Source: Planococcus sp. A6
GTDB lineage: Bacteria; Bacillota; Bacilli; Bacillales_A; Planococcaceae
Reading direction: 5' to 3'
DNA length: 36,840 bases
Assembly (NCBI RefSeq): GCF_028823615.1
Contig: NZ_JAPEHT010000017.1
Location: forward strand, 1-36,840
Shown here: positions 19,770-32,049 of the stretch, piece after piece
Layout: the number at the start of each line of letters is the position of its first letter
Position numbering within the stretch: position 1 is the first letter of the stretch
Translations under genes and position numbers: made by a program
Notes under the pieces: model-generated
The model's database searches: none
What the model saw: only the letters and a program-made list of their open reading frames with translations
What the model was told of the DNA's origin: nothing

Positions 19770-22634
19770 ATGCATGTATCATCGGAAAAAGGCATTAGGC
19801 ATAAATATCTTAGATTGACTTTATCTTCTTTACTCATCTGCAGCATATTAATTGCCGGAGTTTATTTTTACATGGATAAACAACGGCAAGACAAGCAAGC
19901 GGAGTATGATTTGCTTGCTGAAAAGCAAGATACACTCCAGGAACTTTCCCAATCATTGAGCCAGCTTTTTTTCCGAACAAGGGGATATTACGCTTTCCAG
20001 AATGAGGAAGAGCTTAGGTTGGCTTATATAGAATTGGACGAGTTGAAAATTTCAATCGGAAAAATAGAAAATTTATCTATAAAAAATGAAGAACAGCAGC
20101 GAATTTCAGCGTTAAAAAGCTTTATCGCTACATTTGAGGGACAAGTACTGCCCCAAGCGATTGAAGCTGTACAAAATGATGATTATGAAGAACTAAGAAA
20201 CCTTTCAAGGGGCGGGACCAATACCACAGTTAATGAATTCGTCGCTTTTGCCGATGAATATAAATCTACTTCCGAGGCAGAACGCGAACAACTGAACGAA
20301 GATATGATCAGACAGTCGGAAAACTTTTCGTTTGCGCTTATTTTATTGTTTATCCTACTATTTATCATTACAGCGTTGATTATTTATAGAGCCATGAACG
20401 ATCTTGTCAAACCTTTGGAAGGTATGCGTGAATCTATCGAAGGATTCGGAAAAGGCGAGCAGATTTCTTACACTCCTATCGAACGGAAAGATGAGATCGG
20501 CTTATTGTCGATGACTTTTTACCGAATGATGAATACCATCCGCAAAAACCAGGAAGACCTCACTTCCCAAAACCAGGCATTATTGGTGAACAAGGGCCAG
20601 CTGCAGGAAAAGCAGGCAGAACTGCAAGTTGCACTGGAAGAAACCGGGAAGACGAAGGACCGCTTGATCCGCTTCAACGATTTGAACCATATCCTGTCGT
20701 TTACGTTAGATAAACAGAAATTGATCAATGCCACACTCAAGTATTTTACCGACACGTACGAGATTGATACGGGTGTGCTATGGCTTCCGGGTTCTGGCGA
20801 ATACGCGCTGAAAGGCTTCACGGAGAATATGTTCGAGCAATTCCAGGAGCAGCAAATTCCTTACCTATCGACGCGTCTGAGAGAAGATGAATCCTTTACG
20901 GTCACAAGGGAAGCGCTGGAGCAAAAAGGCTTTGTGGACGGGCCGGTTTATATCCATGATTTATACGCGTCTGTAAAAAATGAGCAAAACGAAGGCATCG
21001 CGCTGATCGGTTTGTCGCGTGTCGGCAGAGCCTTTTCAAAAGAGGAAGAAGCCGATATCGATGGATTGCTGAAACGCATCCATTTGGCAATCGACCGGAT
21101 CCAATTGTACGACGCGGCAATCCATGAACGGACATTGAACGAACGCATTGTCAATAATATCAATGAAGGCATCCAATTCATTGCGAAAAATGGCAGCATG
21201 GTGCAGCGCAATGAAACGATGTGCACGATGCTGAGCTGCGGCAATGCGCCGCTGGATGCAGTCATTTCGCAAGATGTATGGATTCACCGGATGGCCGAAC
21301 AAACGACCGATTCACAAGCGATGGTCGATTTCCTCAGCGTTTGCATCCATGAAAAAGGAAACGAAGCAAAGACCTTCCAATATACGGTCAAAGCCCCATA
21401 TGAACGGGTCATCGATGTTTATAGCACCCCGGTCATTGTAGATGGGGAACGTACAGGGACGATCTTTGTGCACCGCGACATCACGAGAGAACACGAAGTC
21501 GACAAGATGAAATCCGAATTGGTCAGCACTGTCAGCCATGAGCTGCGGACACCGCTTTCGAGCGTACTTGGCTTTACGGAGCTGCTGCTCAATAAGGAAT
21601 TGAAACCGGACAAGCAAGTGCGCTATTTGAGGACGATCTATAAAGAAGCGATGCGTTTGACCAACTTGATCAACGACTTCCTGGATTTGCAGCGGATGGA
21701 ATCCGGTGACCAAGTGTACCGGATGGATAAGCTGTTGATGAATGAGCTGGTCATTGAAGCGGCCGAAAAATTCAGGACGCAATCGACGCATTCGATCGTC
21801 TTGGTCGATGATGCATCAGACGTCAAAGTAGAAGGCGACCGAGAGCGCCTGGCACAAGTATTGATGAACCTGGTCGGCAATGCCATCAAGTTTTCCCCAG
21901 AAGGCGGCAATGTGACCATCTGCATGAAAAACCACGCCAATAATTTGCGCGTGTCGATTCAAGACGAAGGAATCGGCATTCCGGCTGAAGACATTCCGAA
22001 GCTGTTTTCCAAATTCCAGCGCATCGACAATAGTTCGCGCCGCAAAATCGGCGGCACCGGGCTTGGACTTGCGATTTGCCAGGAAATCATCGTCAAGCAC
22101 GACGGCAAGATTTGGATTGAATCACAAGAAGGGCGAGGTACGACGATCCACTTTGACTTGCCTCTTATTGCCGGGCTGCACGATCATGCTGCGCACGAAG
22201 GCATTGAAGAGAATCCGCCTGTGATGATTGTGGAAGACGATATGAGCCTTGCCCTGCTGTTGTCAGAAGAGCTGAAACTCAACGGCTTTAAAGTGATTTA
22301 TCACACTTCGCCGAAAGAAGCATTTAAAGAAGCGAAGCGTACGCCTCTGGTCGGCGCTGTCGTAGACATCATGCTCGGCGAGGAATTGAGCGGCTGGGAC
22401 CTGGTCGATATGATGAAAGAAGATTCGGCGACACAGAATATCCCAATTGTCATTTCTTCTGCACTGGATCCATCAACCGATGCCAATAAAATCAGCAAGA
22501 TCAATCATTACCTGACCAAACCGTATGCGCCGGTGAATTTATCGAAAGTGATGAAGAACATCCAAAACGGGCAAGAGCAAAACGGTGTCATCTTCTACGC
22601 CACACACGGCCTGGACGACGAGCCGGAGAGCTGA
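19770..22634 (+). CDS. Membrane hybrid sensor histidine kinase/response regulator
   Basis: A 954-aa sensor kinase. Order: TM1 (about 16-34); an extracytoplasmic helical sensor (about 35-187, CHASE3-like by its length and helical pattern); TM2 (188-208); HAMP (208-262); coiled coil (262-298); GAF-like (300-450); PAS-like (455-575); HisKA with His590 in STVSHELRTPLSS; HATPase with the N box NLVGNAIKFSP, DEGIGIP and GGTGLGLAIC; and a C-terminal receiver with acidic pocket EDD, Asp866 in AVVDIMLG and Lys917 in YLTKPY. All catalytic residues are present. A hybrid kinase needs an Hpt partner. One occurs in the convergent operon ending 168 bases away (25623-27236), which suggests a local phosphorelay. 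The ribosome binding site GGGAGCGAGG precedes ATG 19770. Confidence 0.95.
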   Translation: MHVSSEKGIRHKYLRLTLSSLLICSILIAGVYFYMDKQRQDKQAEYDLLAEKQDTLQELSQSLSQLFFRTRGYYAFQNEEELRLAYIELDELKISIGKIENLSIKNEEQQRISALKSFIATFEGQVLPQAIEAVQNDDYEELRNLSRGGTNTTVNEFVAFADEYKSTSEAEREQLNEDMIRQSENFSFALILLFILLFIITALIIYRAMNDLVKPLEGMRESIEGFGKGEQISYTPIERKDEIGLLSMTFYRMMNTIRKNQEDLTSQNQALLVNKGQLQEKQAELQVALEETGKTKDRLIRFNDLNHILSFTLDKQKLINATLKYFTDTYEIDTGVLWLPGSGEYALKGFTENMFEQFQEQQIPYLSTRLREDESFTVTREALEQKGFVDGPVYIHDLYASVKNEQNEGIALIGLSRVGRAFSKEEEADIDGLLKRIHLAIDRIQLYDAAIHERTLNERIVNNINEGIQFIAKNGSMVQRNETMCTMLSCGNAPLDAVISQDVWIHRMAEQTTDSQAMVDFLSVCIHEKGNEAKTFQYTVKAPYERVIDVYSTPVIVDGERTGTIFVHRDITREHEVDKMKSELVSTVSHELRTPLSSVLGFTELLLNKELKPDKQVRYLRTIYKEAMRLTNLINDFLDLQRMESGDQVYRMDKLLMNELVIEAAEKFRTQSTHSIVLVDDASDVKVEGDRERLAQVLMNLVGNAIKFSPEGGNVTICMKNHANNLRVSIQDEGIGIPAEDIPKLFSKFQRIDNSSRRKIGGTGLGLAICQEIIVKHDGKIWIESQEGRGTTIHFDLPLIAGLHDHAAHEGIEENPPVMIVEDDMSLALLLSEELKLNGFKVIYHTSPKEAFKEAKRTPLVGAVVDIMLGEELSGWDLVDMMKEDSATQNIPIVISSALDPSTDANKISKINHYLTKPYAPVNLSKVMKNIQNGQEQNGVIFYATHGLDDEPES

Positions 22635-22801: not shown

Positions 22802-23158
22802 TCAAGACACCAATATATCTTCCACAAGCGCCAAGAGTTCCATCGGGCTGAAAGGTTTGGACATGAAATAATCTGCCCCGTTCAAAATGGCTTTCTCGCG
22901 GTCCGCGTCTTGCGCTTTCGCTGTCAGCATTAGCACTTTCGTGTCGTTTTGGTCTTTTCTAACTTCCTCCAGCACTTCCATACCAGTCAAATACGGCATC
23001 ATATAATCCAACACGACCAAATCGTAGTCATTGGACCGGATCTTCTCCAGGGCTTCTTTGCCGTCTTCGGCTTCTTCTATCAGGAAGTCATCTTCCAATG
23101 TATCCGCGATCAGGATGCGCAAAATATCTTCATCATCTGCGACTAGTATTTTCTTCAT
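22802..23158 (-). CDS. Single-domain response regulator (CheY-like)
   Basis: A 118-aa stand-alone receiver: acidic pocket ADDED (residues 7-11), phosphoacceptor Asp51 in LVVLDYMMP, Thr in MLTAKAQD and Lys in FMSKPFSP. There is no output domain, so it must act by protein contact or as a phosphate shuttle or sink. The ATG at 23158 has AAGGAGGG at good spacing; the longer frame to 23176 is unnecessary. It is the last gene of a four-gene operon, 18 bases after the glycosyltransferase stop. With the hybrid kinase next door and an Hpt domain in the same operon, it may take phosphate from that relay and act on the synthase complex (inference). Confidence 0.93.
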   Translation of the reverse strand: MKKILVADDEDILRILIADTLEDDFLIEEAEDGKEALEKIRSNDYDLVVLDYMMPYLTGMEVLEEVRKDQNDTKVLMLTAKAQDADREKAILNGADYFMSKPFSPMELLALVEDILVS

Positions 23159-23176
23159 AAGTATCCCTCCTTGCAA

Positions 23177-24574
23177 TTAAGTCGAAATTCCTTTGCGTTT
23201 CATATCGCCCCAATGTGCTTTCTTTTGGAAAGTGGCGAAAATCCCTTTGACCCGCCACAATACCATAAGCGGGCGATACCAAAATGCCTCAGTCAATGCC
23301 CAGAAATACAGGCGCATCAAATGGGAGACTTTCGGGTATTTGTGGAGCGTCAATTCTTCTAGCAACACGGCGAGTGCCGAAATGAGCGATCCGTAGAATA
23401 CCGTCACCAAGAACATGACACCGGCGACTTGCGGATCGACCAGCGAGAAGAAAAAACCGCCAAAAATGATAAAATAGCCGATAAACTCGAATACGGCGCC
23501 GAGTAGTTCAACAAACAAGAAATAAGGCATCGAAAACAAACCGATCGAGCCGTATCTCGGGTTGAGCATCATTTTTCTGTGATTCCACAAAGTTTCAAGC
23601 AGTCCGCGCTGCCAGCGGATCCGCTGAGACCTGAGCACTTCCAGCGATTCAGGGGCTTCCGTCCAGCAGACAGGGTCTGGGATGTATTCGATGCGCTGCT
23701 TGGATTTTTCTTCCCGCAGCAAACGGTGCAGCCGTACGACCAATTCCATATCCTCACCGACCGTGTTCTTATTGTAGCCACCGGCTTGGATGACGCGCTC
23801 TTTATTGAAGACGCCAAATGCCCCGGAGACGATCAACAAAATATTCAAATGACTCAACGCCAGACGGCCGATCAAGAAGGCGCGGAAATACTCGACGATC
23901 TGCATGAGGACGATTGGGCTTTTCGGCAAGCCAATCAGTTCCACTTTGCTTCTTGAAATGGTCGAGCCGTTGGCGATTCGGACAGATCCGCCGGTGACGA
24001 TGATTTGTCCGTCTGATTCGATAATCGGTTTCATGCATTTTAACAGGCCGTCGTTTTCCAAAATGGAATCTCCATCAATCGCACAGAAGTATGGGAAAGA
24101 AGAGAGATTGACCCCGGCATTCAACGCATCCGCCTTGCCGCCGTTCGCTTTTTTGATGAGGCGGATATAAGGGAAGATCGAGGATTGATAAATGGCCTCG
24201 ATTTCCGCGGTCTCAATGTGTGTGCGGACAGCGAAAGGGATTTTCTTCATTTTGAATTCTTCGATCATGCGCAGCGATGTGCTGTCTTTCGATCCGTCAT
24301 CAATAACGATGATTTCTTTTTCAGGGTATTCCAGTGCCAATAACGAACGCACCGTGCTGACAACGCCGACTTCTTCATTGTATGCAGGCACCAGGATCGA
24401 CACTGGATAGGTCGATTGGTTTCTTAAAAAATCCTCTGTAGACTCTCGCTTATCAAGCTTATTTTCTTTTTTGACTTTCCCATATGCCAGTGCAAAAAGA
24501 CCAAGGTAGCTCAGGCTTGAAAAAAGCATATAGGCGATGACGATATAGGATAAAATCAGCGCTATTTCCTGCAT
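23177..24574 (-). CDS. Processive family 2 glycosyltransferase (membrane polysaccharide synthase)
   Basis: A 465-aa membrane glycosyltransferase of the PgaC/BcsA type, expected to polymerise a beta-linked exopolysaccharide from a UDP-sugar and pass it through the membrane. One N-terminal TM (about 5-30) is followed by the GT-A domain: VPAYNEE, IDDGSKDST (92-98), DGDS (167-170), GED (273-275) and QRIRW (317-321), the signature of processive enzymes. At least three C-terminal TM segments (about 340-405 and 420-445) follow, ending in HWGDMKRKG. No PilZ domain is present. Its start ATG overlaps the HEAT gene stop (TAATG), implying translational coupling. The sugar cannot be told; glucosamine-type or cellulose-like polymers are both possible. 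Confidence 0.93.
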   Translation of the reverse strand: MQEIALILSYIVIAYMLFSSLSYLGLFALAYGKVKKENKLDKRESTEDFLRNQSTYPVSILVPAYNEEVGVVSTVRSLLALEYPEKEIIVIDDGSKDSTSLRMIEEFKMKKIPFAVRTHIETAEIEAIYQSSIFPYIRLIKKANGGKADALNAGVNLSSFPYFCAIDGDSILENDGLLKCMKPIIESDGQIIVTGGSVRIANGSTISRSKVELIGLPKSPIVLMQIVEYFRAFLIGRLALSHLNILLIVSGAFGVFNKERVIQAGGYNKNTVGEDMELVVRLHRLLREEKSKQRIEYIPDPVCWTEAPESLEVLRSQRIRWQRGLLETLWNHRKMMLNPRYGSIGLFSMPYFLFVELLGAVFEFIGYFIIFGGFFFSLVDPQVAGVMFLVTVFYGSLISALAVLLEELTLHKYPKVSHLMRLYFWALTEAFWYRPLMVLWRVKGIFATFQKKAHWGDMKRKGIST

Positions 24575-25626
24575 TATTGTTCACTTCCTAGAAGGGAGGT
24601 TTTCCATTGATTCGCCATATCGCGTGCATAGCGGTCGGGATGGCTTTCTGCGAGATGAGTCAGCACGATATCCCCTTCCGAAAACTGCGTCAAGGCTTCG
24701 GCGGATGAGTGGCGGACCCACCAGACCGGATCCCCGAGCAGCTCGCCAAGCGTTTCCTTATAGCGCGACAATTGCAATTTCCCGGCAATCTGAGCGGCAA
24801 ACATGCGCTCCGGCCAAGCGGTCGACTCGAAAAACGGCGCAAGGGCGCTTGGGGAATTCATGTATTGAAGATGAAGGATCGCTTTCAATGCCTGAATGCG
24901 CATCTCCATCTCGGGGTGCTGCAATTCTTCTTCAACGCGTGGAAGAAACAGCGTCATTCCCGCCATTCCGATATAGGAAACGGCAGAATGCTTCAGCGTC
25001 TGGTTGGTATTTTCATCTTTTAATGCAGCATCCAGCTCGTCTAGTTTCGTCAGTTCATCCAGCCGTTTGAATACATCGATATACAACCGGGCCGGGGCAT
25101 CGAGGTATTTTGCAAGCGCCTCAATGGCCACTGTCTCGTTTAAAGAAGCGAGCGTGCGGATCAATTGCTGCGTTTCTTGGTCGAGCTTTGAACTTTTCGC
25201 TAATTTTTCCTTTAGCTGCGGCACGAGTGATTCCATCCGGAAATCTTCGATGAAATACAAAGTGTTCATTCGCATCGCCCAGTTTCCGCGCTTGAGCAGC
25301 TTCATATAGCGCTCGGAAAGGAATTCTTCCGACAGGCGTGAAACCGCGGGTGAATCAGCTCCCGCTTTAGTGACGGATACGTAATGATTCAATAAGCGTT
25401 CAAGTACGATCAATTGATAAGGAGAAGCTTTCAATTCTTGGATGAACCGTTCGTCTGAAGGGTCCATCATATAAGAACTGAACGAATCGGCTAAGGCACT
25501 GTATTGATGGTCGATGGTGGCTTCTCGTTTATTCGATTGCTGCTTGCGCCAAGCTAAGGTCAACAAGAGAAGCAATTGGCCGAAGAACAGGGAGATTATG
25601 AGGATCCAGAAATGCGACAAGTTCAC
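24574..25626 (-). CDS. Membrane-anchored HEAT-repeat protein
   Basis: A 350-aa protein with one N-terminal membrane helix (about 7-26). A long alpha-helical solenoid follows whose spacing and residues fit HEAT repeats: ALKHSAVSYIGMAG-like and HPEMEMRIQALKAILHL units, and a clear C-terminal unit GDPVWWVRHSSAEALTQF. With a short N-terminal segment before the helix, the solenoid probably faces the cytoplasm and may act as a scaffold. It overlaps the diguanylate cyclase gene by ATGA upstream and the glycosyltransferase by TAATG downstream, so the three proteins are made together. It probably connects the cyclase to the synthase (inference). I know of no named family for it. Confidence 0.85.
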   Translation of the reverse strand: MNLSHFWILIISLFFGQLLLLLTLAWRKQQSNKREATIDHQYSALADSFSSYMMDPSDERFIQELKASPYQLIVLERLLNHYVSVTKAGADSPAVSRLSEEFLSERYMKLLKRGNWAMRMNTLYFIEDFRMESLVPQLKEKLAKSSKLDQETQQLIRTLASLNETVAIEALAKYLDAPARLYIDVFKRLDELTKLDELDAALKDENTNQTLKHSAVSYIGMAGMTLFLPRVEEELQHPEMEMRIQALKAILHLQYMNSPSALAPFFESTAWPERMFAAQIAGKLQLSRYKETLGELLGDPVWWVRHSSAEALTQFSEGDIVLTHLAESHPDRYARDMANQWKTSLLGSEQ

Positions 25627-27236
25627 TGGAACATCCTCTTTGTGAGCCGTTGGACACGAGCTACGACTTCCTGTGCATAAAACGGTTTGACGATGTAATC
25701 ATCGGCTCCGCTCTTCAAGGCCAACACGATATCGGATTCGTTGTTGCGGGACGTGAGCATGGAGACGACGATATTGTCATGCGGATATTGCGAGCGCACA
25801 TGGCTCAGCACCTCGAGCCCGTCCATCTTCGGCATGACGCCGTCCAGCAAGATCATGTAATTCTCGTCCGGCCGGTACCAGTCGGAATCGACCAGCGCGA
25901 GACCGTCTGCGTATTCTTCGATGTGAATATCGAAATCCTCCGCTTTCCAATTGGAAAATTGCCTGGCGACCAATTTGCGCACAAGCGAGTCGTCATCGAC
26001 AATGACGATATTCAGTTTGCGCTTCAAATCGTGTTCTTCGGATTCGTACACCATCGTCTGATTGCGACCGTTTCGTTTGGCTTGGTACAAAGCTTTGTCG
26101 GCTTTGTCGACGATCGTTTCCTGTTTGAGCCGGTATTCGCTCACTCCTGCGGAGAATGTCAAGCGAAGCGGCGCAGTGGCGTTGACGGTGAATTCCGTTT
26201 CAGATAGCGCTTTATGCAGGTGAGCGATGAATGCAGCGGCTTCCTGCGGCTTGGTCTCGGGGAGAATTAATGCGAATTCCTCTCCGCCGTAGCGGAAGAA
26301 CGAGTCCGAATCTCGCTTCAAGTTCAGCACAAATTGGCTGAATGAACGCAAAACTTCGTCTCCGGATGAATGCCCGTAGTCATCATTGATTTTCTTGAAA
26401 TAATCCAAATCAAGCAATGCCAGTGTAAAAGGCTTTCCGGTTCGTTCTGCGAGATTGGTCATTTGTAGCAAGACTTCATCAAAGGCTTGGCGATTTCCGG
26501 CTCCGGTCAATTCATCAATTCGCGTGACTTGCAAGATGATTTCCTGGCCCCGCAGGCGATTTGCTAAATACGGGAGGAAATACGCCATATTCAATGGCTT
26601 GGCCAAGAAATCGGTGGCACCGACTTCCATTGCCCGGATTTGGTTATCAATTCGGTCATCTTCACTCATGATAGCGAGGGGAAGGTGTCGGCTTCTGCCG
26701 GCTTCGGCGATTCTTTCGGCTAGGTTGAACCCATCGGCATCCGGCAGCTTTGCATCCAATAACACCATCTGCGGATGCAATGTGTAAAATAATTCCGTGC
26801 CTTTTTGGCCATTCAAAGCGATGACGACAGGAATGCCTTTAGGCTCCAATGTCTCTTTGAGCTTCGCGGCAAATTCAGCATCGGAATCGATGACCAATAC
26901 GAGGGCTTCATCATTCGAAGCTTTGCTTTCCGGTGCCTCCACCTCTGTCTCTTGTTGGCTTGCAGACTCGTCAGCTGCAAAATAATTTCGGAATGAAGAC
27001 ATGAATCCTGCCAGTGAATCGACAGCAAGCAACTCGGTGCTGTGTTCAGAGAAAGCGTCCAGCTCGCGTGCACAAAATTCGGATAGGTCCATCATGCCAA
27101 TCGTCCCAGCGGTACCTTTCATCGTATGCAAAAACCGATAGACTTCACGCTCTTGGATCAGGCCTTGAGCAGCCCATTTCGAGAAATCCCGTTCCATTCG
27201 TGTGGCAAGTAAAGCTTTGTAATCTGTTTGGGCCAA
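25623..27236 (-). CDS. Hpt-REC-GGDEF-REC diguanylate cyclase
   Basis: A 537-aa signalling protein. Hpt domain (1 to about 90) with His37 in FLHTMKGTAG; receiver 1 (about 112-228) with Asp161 in VLLDAKLP and Lys213; GGDEF domain (about 235-398) with DELTGAGNR, the active site YGGEEF (317-321) and an intact RxxD inhibitory site (308-311) exactly five residues before it; receiver 2 (about 408-535) with DDD pocket and Asp465 in ILLDGVMP. It should make cyclic di-GMP from GTP, limited by product binding and controlled by phosphorylation at up to three sites. The start is TTG 27236, preceded by AAGGACGGTG. It is the first gene of the operon. The PleD-like two-receiver set-up with a built-in Hpt is unusual. 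Confidence 0.95.
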   Translation of the reverse strand: MAQTDYKALLATRMERDFSKWAAQGLIQEREVYRFLHTMKGTAGTIGMMDLSEFCARELDAFSEHSTELLAVDSLAGFMSSFRNYFAADESASQQETEVEAPESKASNDEALVLVIDSDAEFAAKLKETLEPKGIPVVIALNGQKGTELFYTLHPQMVLLDAKLPDADGFNLAERIAEAGRSRHLPLAIMSEDDRIDNQIRAMEVGATDFLAKPLNMAYFLPYLANRLRGQEIILQVTRIDELTGAGNRQAFDEVLLQMTNLAERTGKPFTLALLDLDYFKKINDDYGHSSGDEVLRSFSQFVLNLKRDSDSFFRYGGEEFALILPETKPQEAAAFIAHLHKALSETEFTVNATAPLRLTFSAGVSEYRLKQETIVDKADKALYQAKRNGRNQTMVYESEEHDLKRKLNIVIVDDDSLVRKLVARQFSNWKAEDFDIHIEEYADGLALVDSDWYRPDENYMILLDGVMPKMDGLEVLSHVRSQYPHDNIVVSMLTSRNNESDIVLALKSGADDYIVKPFYAQEVVARVQRLTKRMFQ

Positions 27237-27466: not shown

Positions 27467-27505
27467 AAAACAAAAAGACACTTCCAAAAATCATGAGAAG
27501 TGTCT
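27467..27505 (-). terminator. Rho-independent terminator of the TIM-barrel gene
   Basis: AGACACTTC (27476-27484) pairs exactly with GAAGTGTCT (27497-27505), followed on the minus strand by T-rich sequence. It separates the riboswitch-controlled gene from the cyclase operon. Confidence 0.85.
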
Positions 27506-27512
27506 GATCTTT

Positions 27513-28397
27513 TCATGGCTTGAGCGTCATCCAGCTGCCAACATGATGGATAGCAATTCCTTCGTAGGCAGAGTATCCCGAGTAATGGGCGGCCACTTCG
27601 CCCAACTGAAGATTCATGAACGCTTCGCCTTCCTCTGCAAAAGTGATGATGCTGCCTTCATCGGTTGTGCCTGTTTCTACGCCCACCACCACATGTTTGC
27701 CGTATTTTTCGGCCATGGCGATTTCGTTTTTGACGATTTCGATGATCATCGGGGCTGAATCCCGGTAAGCCATCAATGTGACTCCGTCCGTATTTGCAAT
27801 GACCCATTCAGCCAATAATCCGCTGCCAAAGGTATTATTGTAAGGAATTTCGTCGAACCAAAAAGGCATGTCGGCTTCGAGCGGCAAGTTCAATTGAGAT
27901 GAGCTGACGACGGCTCTTTGCAGAAGCGATTGATAGGACTTCACTGTAGTAGCGCGATTCGAATTCCATCCGCTGTACAAATAAGGCTCCACATCCAAAT
28001 GGATGCCGTCAAAACTCGCCTGCTCCGTCGACCCGCTTTGGTAATTGCTCAGCCAGTTCATCAACATATTCTGATTTGTATAACCTTTTGGCGCAACCCA
28101 AGAAGGCGCCCCGTCGAGTGCGAACACGGCTATGCCGCGTGCGTGCGCTTGCGTGACAAAGCTGCGGTACGTATCTTTAGGAATGTCGCGGTCGATTTGA
28201 ACGTAGACTTTATTGACGTTTTTGTTTTCGAGAAAAGCGAGCACAGCTGCTTCATCTTTCACGAACATCCATGGGTTCCATAGCCAAGTGGCACGGGTAT
28301 CAGGCGCATCGCCGCTTGCCTGTACATTTTCTGCATGGCTGAACGCTGTCAGCATGAGAGACATTGCGAACATCAACATCGCCGCTTTCTTCAACAT
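27513..28397 (-). CDS. Secreted TIM-barrel glycosidase-like protein under c-di-GMP riboswitch
   Basis: A 294-aa exported protein. It has a Sec signal peptide (1 to about 27, ending ENVQASG) and a single domain whose strand motifs fit a TIM barrel: ATWLWNPW, NKVYVQIDRDI, GIAVFALDGAP, FDGIHLDVEPY, LPLEADMPFWFDE, DGVTLMAYRD, VVVGVETGT and IAIHHVGSW. The Asp-x-Glu in HLDVEPY resembles the catalytic acid position of GH18-like hydrolases, so polysaccharide cleavage is likely but unproven. ATG 28397 has GGAGG 8 bases upstream. Its leader carries a c-di-GMP-I aptamer (28440-28528). Upstream of the cyclase/synthase operon on the same strand, it may trim or release the polymer made by the GT2 enzyme (inference). 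Confidence 0.85.
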   Translation of the reverse strand: MLKKAAMLMFAMSLMLTAFSHAENVQASGDAPDTRATWLWNPWMFVKDEAAVLAFLENKNVNKVYVQIDRDIPKDTYRSFVTQAHARGIAVFALDGAPSWVAPKGYTNQNMLMNWLSNYQSGSTEQASFDGIHLDVEPYLYSGWNSNRATTVKSYQSLLQRAVVSSSQLNLPLEADMPFWFDEIPYNNTFGSGLLAEWVIANTDGVTLMAYRDSAPMIIEIVKNEIAMAEKYGKHVVVGVETGTTDEGSIITFAEEGEAFMNLQLGEVAAHYSGYSAYEGIAIHHVGSWMTLKP

Positions 28398-28408
28398 ATT
28401 CTTTTCCT

Positions 28409-28438
28409 CCATTCTGTTAGCCGAGGCCCACAGAATGG
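28409..28438 (-). promoter_or_regulatory. Ribosome-binding-site hairpin (expression platform)
   Basis: CCATTCTGT and ACAGAATGG form a perfect 9-bp stem between the riboswitch aptamer and the start codon. Its 3' arm includes the first two G of the GGAGG ribosome binding site. There is no U-tract, so control would be on translation initiation. Confidence 0.6.
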
Positions 28439-28439
28439 G

Positions 28440-28528
28440 TACCTGGCAACCTGACGACCGTGCACTGCTTAAGCAGTGGGTAGGCTCATGGCTTTGCGTC
28501 CTTCCTTTTCAGGTAAGTTTGCCTTTTT
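28440..28528 (-). promoter_or_regulatory. Cyclic di-GMP-I (GEMM-I) riboswitch aptamer
   Basis: Read on the minus strand, the leader contains the GEMM-I hallmarks in order. GGCAAAC (28523-28517) comes first, then a stem capped by a GAAA tetraloop. The invariant GGACGCAAAGCC (28501-28490) follows, then AGCCTA and a second arm with the perfect hairpin CACTGC-TTAA-GCAGTG. The closing AGGTTGCCAGG (from 28452) completes it. The tetraloop and second arm are positioned for the known docking contact. It lies 43 bases upstream of the TIM-barrel gene's ATG. Whether binding turns expression on or off cannot be read from sequence. Confidence 0.92.
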
Positions 28529-28541
28529 CAGTTTTTTTCTT

Positions 28542-28547
28542 ATTATA
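28542..28547 (-). promoter_or_regulatory. -10 element of the riboswitch transcript
   Basis: A perfect TATAAT on the minus strand lies about 14 bases before the aptamer's 5' end, fitting transcription start near 28535. The -35 region (T-rich, TTTTAA-like) is weak. Confidence 0.55.
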
Positions 28548-28606: not shown

Positions 28607-28807
28607 TTATTGAGAAGTTTGAAACAAAAACAAAGCCGCATTCAGGAAAATGGCTATGAGGGGGATCGTAATCATCAAAATGCCTTTTCGTGTTTGCTGC
28701 GGGTCGTTTCCGTGTTGCTCGTTAAAATGTCGAGCCCATTTGCTGACCAGAAGGTGAGTCATAACAATAAAACCAAAAAGCCCCAATGAAATAAAAAGCT
28801 GTGTCAC
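28607..28807 (-). CDS. Small two-TM membrane protein (paralogue 1)
   Basis: A 66-aa protein with two hydrophobic helices (about 4-22 and 43-62) joined by a charged loop. It opens MTQLFISLGLFGFIVMTHLL and is clearly homologous to the next gene upstream (28853-29047), sharing TQ, LGFIV, TH, LV, KWA and an ND in the loop. The start is GTG 28807, preceded by AGGATAGGA. Such tandem small membrane proteins may be toxins, channel-like or stress proteins; no known family is recognised. Confidence 0.7.
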   Translation of the reverse strand: MTQLFISLGLFGFIVMTHLLVSKWARHFNEQHGNDPQQTRKGILMITIPLIAIFLNAALFLFQTSQ

Positions 28808-28852: not shown

Positions 28853-29047
28853 TTAAGATTGCATGAGAAAGAGCGCGGACAAACCGAACAATGCCGCAAG
28901 GGACATAAAAAGGATGCCCCCAGCAATCCGCCTCTTCCTGGCATCGTTGGCATATTTTTCTCGAATATAGGCGGCCCATTTCCAAACTAGAATATGAGTT
29001 ATCACGATAAAACCGAGAATGAGCAAGCTGATAAGAGATTGTGTCAT
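28853..29047 (-). CDS. Small two-TM membrane protein (paralogue 2)
   Basis: A 64-aa protein with helices at about 4-24 and 43-62, opening MTQSLISLLILGFIVITHIL. It is a tandem duplicate of the following gene, with about half the positions identical in the first 30 residues. The ATG at 29047 has AAGGA at good spacing. The 45-base gap suggests co-transcription of the pair. Function unknown. Confidence 0.7.
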   Translation of the reverse strand: MTQSLISLLILGFIVITHILVWKWAAYIREKYANDARKRRIAGGILFMSLAALFGLSALFLMQS

Positions 29048-30879: not shown

Positions 30880-32049
30880 ATGACACCGATCATCGCCTTT
30901 ACCCTTATCATGCTCATCTGGACAGTCAGTGATTACATCTCCAAGAAAACAAAAGCTTTATTGTCGTCGCTATTCGTCGCCTCGATCATTTTCCTGATCG
31001 GATTCAAGACCAATTTATTTCCGGAAGATTTATTGCCAACCTCTGCTTTGCTGCCTCTTGGCCAAACCGTTGTCGGCATGATCATCGTCCATTTGGGCAC
31101 ATTGATCAGCTTGGATGAATTCAAGCGACAATGGCGGACGTTCTTGATCGGCGTCTCCGCAGTCCTTGGGATCGCCATTATGTTGTTCACCATCGGCAGG
31201 CTGCTGCTGGACACGAATTATGTATTGAGTGCAATCGCAGCGATTAGCGGCGGGACCATTTCAGTCATCATCGTCCAAGAACAGGCCTTGAACGCAGGAT
31301 TAATCTCGGTCGCTGTATTCCCGGTGCTGATTGCTGCCTTGCAAGGGCTCATCGGATTTCCGCTTACCTCCATCATTTTACGAAAAGAGGCGATGCGGAT
31401 ACGGGATGGCGTGCGTGATGGCAGCATTACCCGAAAAGCAGCTGTCGAAGAAGAGAAGACGGACGTCAAGGAGACGATCTTGCCGGAAGCCTTCCAGACG
31501 ACGGCAGGAACTCTCTGTGTGGTCGGGCTCGTTGTAATTCTTGCCATGTTTTTGAGCGGGCTGACGAATGGCTGGTTGAACACCTTTGTTATCGCATTGC
31601 TGCTGGGGATTGCGCTACGGGCAACCGGCGTCTTGAAACCAAATGTCTTAAATGGCATCGATGCGTACGGTTTGATGATGCTGGCGATTCTTTTGATTAT
31701 TTTCGGGCCGCTTGCAACGACTTCGTTTGCAGACCTCGTGGAGTTATTGGTGCCGCTACTGATCGCGTTTAGTCTCGGCGTCATCGGTATTGTGCTGTTT
31801 GCGATGCTGGCCGGCAAATTTTTGGGCTACACATACCCGATGGCCGTCGCAATCGGCCTGTCCTCGCTTTACGGATTCCCGGGGACCTTGATCTTGAGTG
31901 AGGAAGCAGCCAAAAATATCGGCGAAACGGAAGACGAAATCCAGGTCATCGAAGACGAGATTTTGCCGAAAATGGTCGTTGCCGGCTTTTCGACCGTTAC
32001 GATCACTTCTGTCTTCCTTACCGGGATATTGGCATCATTTATTTACTAA
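30880..32049 (+). CDS. ESS/GltS-like multi-pass membrane transporter
   Basis: A 389-aa integral membrane protein with about ten hydrophobic helices in two halves. They are separated by a charged cytoplasmic loop (about residues 175-205, rich in Lys, Arg and Glu). Gly- and Pro-containing helix breaks (AAISGGTISVIIVQ and LSSLYGFPGTLILSEEA) recur in equivalent places of both halves, as in the GltS and related secondary transporters with inverted repeats. The substrate is unknown; small carboxylates or amino acids are likely. ATG 30880 has a modest GGGCGGAA ribosome binding site and lies 97 bases after the M20 peptidase. Confidence 0.7.
   Translation: MTPIIAFTLIMLIWTVSDYISKKTKALLSSLFVASIIFLIGFKTNLFPEDLLPTSALLPLGQTVVGMIIVHLGTLISLDEFKRQWRTFLIGVSAVLGIAIMLFTIGRLLLDTNYVLSAIAAISGGTISVIIVQEQALNAGLISVAVFPVLIAALQGLIGFPLTSIILRKEAMRIRDGVRDGSITRKAAVEEEKTDVKETILPEAFQTTAGTLCVVGLVVILAMFLSGLTNGWLNTFVIALLLGIALRATGVLKPNVLNGIDAYGLMMLAILLIIFGPLATTSFADLVELLVPLLIAFSLGVIGIVLFAMLAGKFLGYTYPMAVAIGLSSLYGFPGTLILSEEAAKNIGETEDEIQVIEDEILPKMVVAGFSTVTITSVFLTGILASFIY

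Follow-up and report, generated by a model that had tools for sequence, protein, structure and literature searches.

A c-di-GMP-I riboswitch ahead of a putative secreted glycosidase in Planococcus, probably OFF at high c-di-GMP, and its association with a HEAT/GT2 polysaccharide synthase

The closest known logic to the circuit described here is that of ppep-1 in C. difficile where, as outlined in excerpts of PMC11477304, a class I c-di-GMP riboswitch controls a secreted enzyme which, at low c-di-GMP, strips away the bacterium's own sessile-state factor, and another class I riboswitch lies before the flgB operon; in both respects it resembles the genome studied here. PPEP-1, however, is a protease, its substrates are protein adhesins under class II riboswitches with which it is inversely regulated, and the flgB switch acts by transcription termination (excerpts of PMC11477304), whereas the platform in our window appears to be of the translational type, and a putative glycosidase and a polysaccharide take the place of the protease and the adhesins. 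GEMM-I RNAs in general control very diverse genes, and some of them sense c-AMP-GMP (excerpts of PMC7266159). The window aptamer is the same as other RF01051 riboswitches in sequence and structure, and differs from them in the family of the controlled gene; full-text searches of the open-access literature for a c-di-GMP riboswitch on a glycosidase, or in Planococcus or Lysinibacillus, brought up nothing about this pairing among the matches listed. The riboswitch class is known; what appears new is its pairing with an unclassified barrel family, the spread of this pair in the Bacillales, and the link of the pair with a single GT2 glycosyltransferase.

On the enzyme side, PslG of P. aeruginosa and dispersin B act on biofilm polysaccharide, and the Pss polymer of Listeria is the product of a separate operon, its synthesis depending on c-di-GMP; we know of no riboswitch on pssZ. 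Both PslG and dispersin B are among the fold matches of the enzyme studied here, P0001 (TM 0.61 and 0.53, respectively), but are absent from its sequence search of the PDB. Listeria PssZ (GH126) is likewise a glycosidase that cleaves the exopolysaccharide of its own species (excerpts of PMC7479077), but is built on an (α/α)6 barrel, as opposed to the (βα)8 barrel predicted for P0001.

The window, by which we mean the whole stretch of 36,840 nucleotides from Planococcus sp. A6 that was analysed, carries the following leader, gene and gene end, in the order of transcription:
28542..28547, minus strand: TATAAT, a candidate −10 box, read in the sequence
28442..28533, minus strand: c-di-GMP-I (GEMM-I) aptamer
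28420..28447, minus strand: stem B (anti-sequester), GCCAGG..CCCA / TGGG..CCT.c.GGC, from the fold of the nascent leader; takes the last GCC of the aptamer
28409..28438, minus strand: hairpin A (sequester), CCATTCTGT/ACAGAATGG, from folding and alignment; its 3′ arm enters the Shine-Dalgarno
28406..28410, minus strand: Shine-Dalgarno GGAGG, its first two bases inside hairpin A
27513..28397, minus strand: P0001, 294 aa, a probably secreted (βα)8-barrel and putative exopolysaccharide glycosidase, from AlphaFold2, Foldseek and alignment
27468..27505, minus strand: likely intrinsic terminator of the enzyme gene, a stem followed by a T-run

We consider it probable, with appreciable room for doubt, that this c-di-GMP-I riboswitch controls a putative secreted glycosidase directed against the HEAT/GT2 polymer and turns it OFF at high c-di-GMP. 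The riboswitch would command a single-gene transcript, and the exported glycosidase would trim or remove the polymer of the HEAT/GT2 synthase, which in the genome of the window is encoded next door together with its own diguanylate cyclase. This explanation best accommodates what is read at the level of sequence, namely the aptamer, the two stems found in many relatives, a likely terminator, the recurring pair and the co-occurrence with the GT2, from which we infer ligand binding, direction, secretion, glycosidase activity and substrate.

The original prediction had recognized a c-di-GMP-I riboswitch in this leader by its GEMM-I motifs, all of which were found in the order claimed. The covariance model agrees, since RF01051 matches 28533..28442 on the minus strand over its full length (positions 1–87 of 87) with 67 bits, well over its gathering score of 35 (Rfam scan, E 3.6e-11), and this is the sole Rfam match over threshold in the whole window. 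The riboswitch is thus confirmed as a sequence element; it occupies a 5′ UTR position, is followed by an expression platform and lies 44 nt from the start codon of the enzyme. Our own model R1, built from 33 aptamers and including the window among its 33 training rows, gives it 99.8 bits. When 33 of the 39 distinct aptamers were aligned (A3), G11 G12, ACGCAAAGC and C88 C89 were invariant in 33 of 33, and it is in these places that the c-di-GMP contacts of Vc2, which are G20, A47 and C92 (excerpts of PMC4744006), are expected, by stretch and not base to base. The genome (265 contigs) contains one other RF01051 match besides that of the window. This second aptamer (L134:14697-14783, minus strand, contig C213) precedes a flgB-fliE-fliF-like gene run, as read from the ORFs, has a hairpin and then a T-run downstream, and resembles a switch that acts on flagellar genes at the level of transcription.

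The TATAAT that had been noted ahead of the aptamer is present at 28547–28542 on the minus strand, and a TANNNT box was found 12–23 bases ahead of the aptamer region in all 24 leaders examined (the first 24 of the list, window included), 18 of them with the exact TATAAT, by a loose pattern used with no control. A simple sigma-70 scan of the minus strand near the aptamer gave no −35/−10 pair and no consensus −35. The likely start codon of the enzyme, at 28397, fits the conserved Shine-Dalgarno, while an in-frame ATG at 28412 was rejected as the start because it overlaps the Shine-Dalgarno and is not conserved. Of the extent first proposed for the leader element, 28409–28547, the element itself stands, but its 3′ boundary has to be moved, as the leader continues to 28398.

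Two stems make up the expression platform. In stem B, the final GCC of the aptamer and the bases following it pair with the loop of hairpin A. Both stems were followed in an alignment (A2) of 37 of the 41 distinct platforms, the other four (G054, G038, G001 and G020, all of one genus) being left out because of their different length, and in nascent folds of the 37 distinct leaders out of 42. Hairpin A is paired in 88.4% of the 481 cells of the alignment, against 36.0–50.5% for slid versions of the same stem, and none of 500 shuffles came as high as its covariation score of 0.322 (slid versions, 0.081–0.165). It pairs at least two of the five Shine-Dalgarno bases in 33 of the 37 distinct leaders, and its energy beats 95% of dinucleotide shuffles in 30 of them; in the window itself it covers only two of the five. 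Stem B is paired in 89.2% of 333 cells (slid versions, 21.5–59.3%), with a covariation score of 0.238 that was reached by one of 500 shuffles (slid versions, 0.042–0.154). Stem B engages two or all three of the GCC bases in 36 of 37 nascent folds, compared with about 26 of 37 for shuffles of the same composition, and its fold energy ranks above 95% of shuffles in only 16 of 37. The number of doubly changed pairs is unexceptional for either stem. For hairpin A, seven of 13 pairs are changed on both sides, a number reached by 50 of 500 shuffles and also by slide −1, and the doubly changed cells amount to 30, against 34 for slide +2; for stem B, the corresponding values are three of nine pairs, reached by 274 of 500 shuffles, and 16 cells against 17 for slide −2.

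Since stem B uses both the 3′ strand of the aptamer and the 5′ arm of hairpin A, the bound aptamer and hairpin A should go together; stem B competes with the bound aptamer for the GCC and with hairpin A for the 5′ arm, and on a simple reading the ligand thus means OFF. At low c-di-GMP, the 3′ strand of the aptamer (GCC) would pair downstream to form stem B, which would occupy the 5′ arm of hairpin A and leave the Shine-Dalgarno free, so that the enzyme is made and exported. At high c-di-GMP, the bound aptamer would retain its 3′ strand, stem B would not form, and hairpin A would shut the Shine-Dalgarno, keeping the enzyme OFF while the polymer is made. With such an OFF platform, synthesis and cleavage would therefore be set in opposite directions. 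As to direction by itself, we place a clear majority of the weight on OFF, a small share on ON, and the remainder on a weak or silent switch.

It is rather improbable, in our judgement, that the same parts work with the reverse sign, that is, that c-di-GMP turns the enzyme ON and the polymer is trimmed or remodelled during its synthesis. Whether or not the aptamer strand is available, hairpin A is the predicted minimum-energy fold in the window, as it is for most leaders viewed, so the ligand could act otherwise than through stem B, and Vc1, a c-di-GMP-I riboswitch, raises gbpA (excerpts of PMC4744006); yet a stem that takes the aptamer 3′ strand together with the 5′ arm of hairpin A, in a geometry that recurs with different sequence, argues for the opposite sign. 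Equilibrium folding with the aptamer 3′ strand either free or held supports neither direction, because exposure of the Shine-Dalgarno was higher with the free strand in only 24 of 42 leaders, with no consistent shift (the Shine-Dalgarno was mis-set in five leaders of this test, G198, G084, G121, G033 and G174). The same result would suit a real aptamer whose hairpin A keeps translation weak at every c-di-GMP level, leaving the switch near-idle in this strain, as would the partial cover of the Shine-Dalgarno in the window and the case of Bc1 of B. thuringiensis, which binds c-di-GMP while its downstream genes are unresponsive (excerpts of PMC11218506). Against this, the aptamer and both stems persist across genera that include Planococcus, Lysinibacillus, Domibacillus and Neobacillus, and we regard an idle switch as very improbable.

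The platform was also followed outside the first family. From the best 80 of 363 relatives, 68 aptamer-bearing named loci were available, of which 38, chosen by their titles as outside the first family (with Jeotgalibacillus included on title alone), were folded and 35 were usable. Hairpin A reaches the Shine-Dalgarno in 33 of these 35 leaders and stem B reaches the GCC in 27, no shuffles being run here; eight of the 35 are without stem B by the same folding test. The leaders L212, L214 and L218 have the geometry of hairpin A and stem B with quite different letters. A T-run (at least four T) close after hairpin A was seen in none of the 42 leaders of the window family, versus 12 of the 37 other-genera leaders (L149, L150, L152, L155, L156, L158, L166 of Domibacillus, L171, L174, L180, L186 and L199). 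In these 12, hairpin A may double as a terminator, which would also be OFF and speaks against an ON switch. Control thus looks translational in the window and perhaps proceeds also by termination elsewhere, and a purely translational switch across the relatives was rejected on account of these T-runs, with the weights given to the alternatives unchanged.

The enzyme gene appears to end its own transcript. The likely terminator behind it has a fold of −13.3 kcal/mol (z −2.69), and a permissive search with no shuffles found a hairpin with a T-run at most 140 nt past the gene in all 24 cases examined, that of the window among them; the built-in terminator scan, which has a loop limit of 8, found none after the enzyme gene. 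With a likely terminator behind the enzyme gene, the enzyme alone, rather than the operon beyond, is the most probable target of the riboswitch, and a role as whole-operon controller was set aside in view of the 24 genes of this permissive search. As originally predicted, a diguanylate cyclase/GT2 operon adjoins on the same strand, with overlapping genes from 27236 to 23177; a GGEEF cyclase and a GT2 stand in one operon-like run, as would be expected of a c-di-GMP-controlled synthase operon. The operon and its convergent neighbour comprise:
25623..27236, minus strand: Hpt-REC-GGDEF-REC protein (Pfam), with GGEEF and an RxxD (RDSD) five residues before it
24574..25626, minus strand: HEAT-repeat protein of the synthase operon (Pfam HEAT_2), with an N-terminal hydrophobic stretch seen by eye
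23177..24574, minus strand: GT2 glycosyltransferase, PgaC/IcaA-like, below the cut-off of that model
22802..23176, minus strand: single-domain response regulator (Pfam), at the operon end
19770..22634, plus strand: hybrid histidine kinase (Pfam), convergent with the operon

GGEEF denotes an active diguanylate cyclase, and an RxxD five residues ahead of it denotes feedback inhibition; by motif, then, the Hpt-REC-GGDEF-REC protein would be an active, feedback-inhibited diguanylate cyclase. Pfam and NCBIfam scans of the operon listed no PilZ or other c-di-GMP receptor domain. Among 23 named loci that have the GT2 in their flank (from the best 80 of 363 relatives), the HEAT gene is present in 23 and a cyclase scoring 100 bits or more in 16; HEAT and GT2 are therefore taken as the core, and the cyclase as a lineage-specific neighbour. 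Overall, the analysis supports the idea that c-di-GMP could both drive polymer synthesis and determine how much of a polymer-cleaving enzyme is present, and sharpens it by the likely terminator and the seemingly OFF-type platform added here.

The pairing of aptamer and enzyme recurs widely. By the R1 model, 68 of 80 named loci (the best 80 of 363 relatives, their genomes partly common with the family set) have the aptamer directly ahead of the enzyme gene, as do 43 of the 71 family-set loci. For other genera, whose leaders were not used for the model, it was found in 38 of 45 named loci, again from the best 80 of 363. Genera with both aptamer and gene include Planococcus, Domibacillus, Neobacillus, Peribacillus, Jeotgalibacillus, Lysinibacillus, Alkalicoccus and others, and the closest named relatives among the matches listed are Planococcus with 94% identity. 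Of 200 same-family genomes, 70 have the enzyme gene and 117 have some c-di-GMP-I aptamer. One aptamer, L125, is weak with R1 (34 bits) and scores 72.2 bits with the Rfam model. The aptamer is absent at the gene in 12 of the 80 named loci (best 80 of 363) and in 28 of the 71 family loci, and an Rfam rescan of eight of those 12 gave no c-di-GMP-I match. On a tree of 71 proteins the aptamer trait needs 5 changes, versus 21.4 for shuffled labels, and hence is clustered, with a small number of gains or losses. At 11 sites, from three genera, the copy that shares its locus with the GT2 has no aptamer, and in G198 the copy beside the GT2 is without one (L101) while a distant copy has it (L089); cleavage and synthesis may be co-made at such places, which would favour ON. 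Aptamer-less copies were also noted at L168 (8001-8855, P. chinensis, a second enzyme copy besides that of L145) and L161 (8001-8843, P. glaciei), two loci that have SAM riboswitches about 7 kb off.

The link between enzyme and GT2 is better seen across whole genomes than in gene order, since the GT2 lies within about 8 kb in only 23 of the 80 named loci (best 80 of 363) and 31 of 73 family-set places, and adjacency was accordingly dropped as the evidence for it. In the 200-genome set, the GT2 (E at most 1e-80) is present in 98 genomes, namely in 65 of 70 enzyme carriers versus 33 of 130 non-carriers (Fisher p 1.1e-21, which ignores shared descent; the count includes the enzyme fragment of G107 and becomes 64 of 69 without it). 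Two of the five carriers without GT2 in this set, G136 and G110, have only partial enzyme matches. A second set of 150 genomes, from the order round Neobacillus, gave the GT2 (E at most 1e-60) in 32 of 34 carriers versus 27 of 116 (p 3.5e-14, likewise ignoring shared descent), and in G343, which is one of the two exceptions, the enzyme gene is interrupted by a stop. This second set makes shared descent a less likely cause of the co-occurrence. Of 45 named genomes picked from the loci of the best 80 of 363 relatives, 43 likewise have the GT2, which in 38 of the 43 lies outside the fetched flank. By eye, 83 of 87 enzyme carriers of the whole set, which overlaps the 200 genomes, have the GT2, and among 45 genomes of the window genus, 37 have both, six have neither (one of these, G136, with an enzyme fragment), one has the enzyme only (G237) and one the GT2 only (G215). 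At the thresholds used, the enzyme occurs without the GT2 in G031, G050, G195, G237, G317, G343 (internal stop), G259 and G267, and as fragments in G110 and G136. That the enzyme and the GT2 so often occur together strengthens the proposal that c-di-GMP could set the level of a putative polymer-cleaving enzyme, and the polymer of the GT2 is most likely the substrate of P0001. Four genomes, G335, G373, G405 and G432, have 7 to 11 enzyme matches each, several as tandem pairs, which flank a divergent GT2 on both sides.

The TIM barrel anticipated for the product was recovered by AlphaFold2, whose model (mean pLDDT 91.6, from 71 sequences) is a (βα)8 barrel; as for secretion, also anticipated, a Sec-type signal peptide can be seen by eye at the N-terminus of P0001, so export stands as a prediction. 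P0001 has no Pfam match at E 0.001 and only a chance-level NCBIfam match, the best Pfam E among 71 homologues is 0.0043, and the matches of single family members at E 0.004–0.1, including the EndoS barrel model at 0.031, were taken as noise. Foldseek placed GH18 chitinases first among solved structures (E 7.3e-9, TM 0.43), while dispersin B (TM 0.53) and PslG (TM 0.61) came lower among the 50 rows shown; as regards a (βα)8 barrel of the GH18 type, the GH18 matches span TM values of about 0.42–0.57. GH18 enzymes carry the signatures DxxDxDxE on strand 4 and MxYD, which the strand-4 motif DGIHLDVEPY and MAYRD of P0001 resemble. Membership of GH18 was rejected, as DGIHLDVE has H for the second D, this H133 is invariant in 71 rows, and there is no Pfam GH18 match. 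The only significant sequence relative in the PDB, and thus the only one of solved structure, is 10yv, 'Putative GH97 from Cellulomonas fimi' (profile E 4.1e-21), which comes from a different phylum; membership of GH97 was rejected too, as it rests on this PDB title, with no Pfam match at E 0.001 and none of the 71 members named GH97. Invariant residues in the 71 rows include H133, E137, Y139, D176, W180, Y211, E241, H284 and W289, and the candidate active-site residues are H133/D135/E137, D176, Y211 and E241.

P0001 is thus best described as a putative glycosidase of a family without a curated name, for which the fold matches make glycosidase activity likely. Such a protein might instead have a different glycan as its target, be it the cell wall or a host or plant polymer, or bind without cutting, with a switch of either direction. 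The lack of a curated family, the mixture of fold matches, which range from GH18 chitinases to sugar epimerases and other proteins with TM-scores near 0.4–0.6, and the bare label 'Putative GH97' on its sole relative of known structure all leave room for this; but the enzyme goes with the GT2 in two genome sets, and among its invariant acidic and aromatic residues several lie at predicted strand ends, so we consider such a role unlikely, if less so than an ON switch.

For the glycosidase under an OFF switch, we go one step further, to a proposal that we hold evenly balanced: the barrel family would be a dedicated eraser of the Bacillales HEAT/GT2 exopolysaccharide, and the OFF riboswitch, which occurs also where the synthase is distant, would make eraser and polymer mutually exclusive, as a polysaccharide counterpart of PPEP-1. 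The recurring pair together with the GT2 suggests a built-in 'no slime cutting during settling' control. Sensor, enzyme and synthase are linked in many Bacillales despite the missing curated family of the enzyme; if the proposal is true, an uncharacterised exopolysaccharide gains its own dispersal enzyme, a ready tool for identifying the polymer, and the cell has an RNA-only means of separating polymer synthesis from its removal.

Other genes of the window near the riboswitch were also looked at. At 30880-32049 on the plus strand lies an ORF of 389 aa that has no Pfam match and only sub-threshold NCBIfam ones (AbrB duplication, E 0.0065), and probably encodes an uncharacterised membrane protein. 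Just upstream of the riboswitch promoter are two tandem small membrane-protein ORFs, 28607-28807 and 28853-29047, both on the minus strand, of 66 and 64 aa with 45% mutual identity. They have no NCBIfam match and only chance-level Pfam matches, and among the 151 loci searched their matches are confined to close Planococcus loci.
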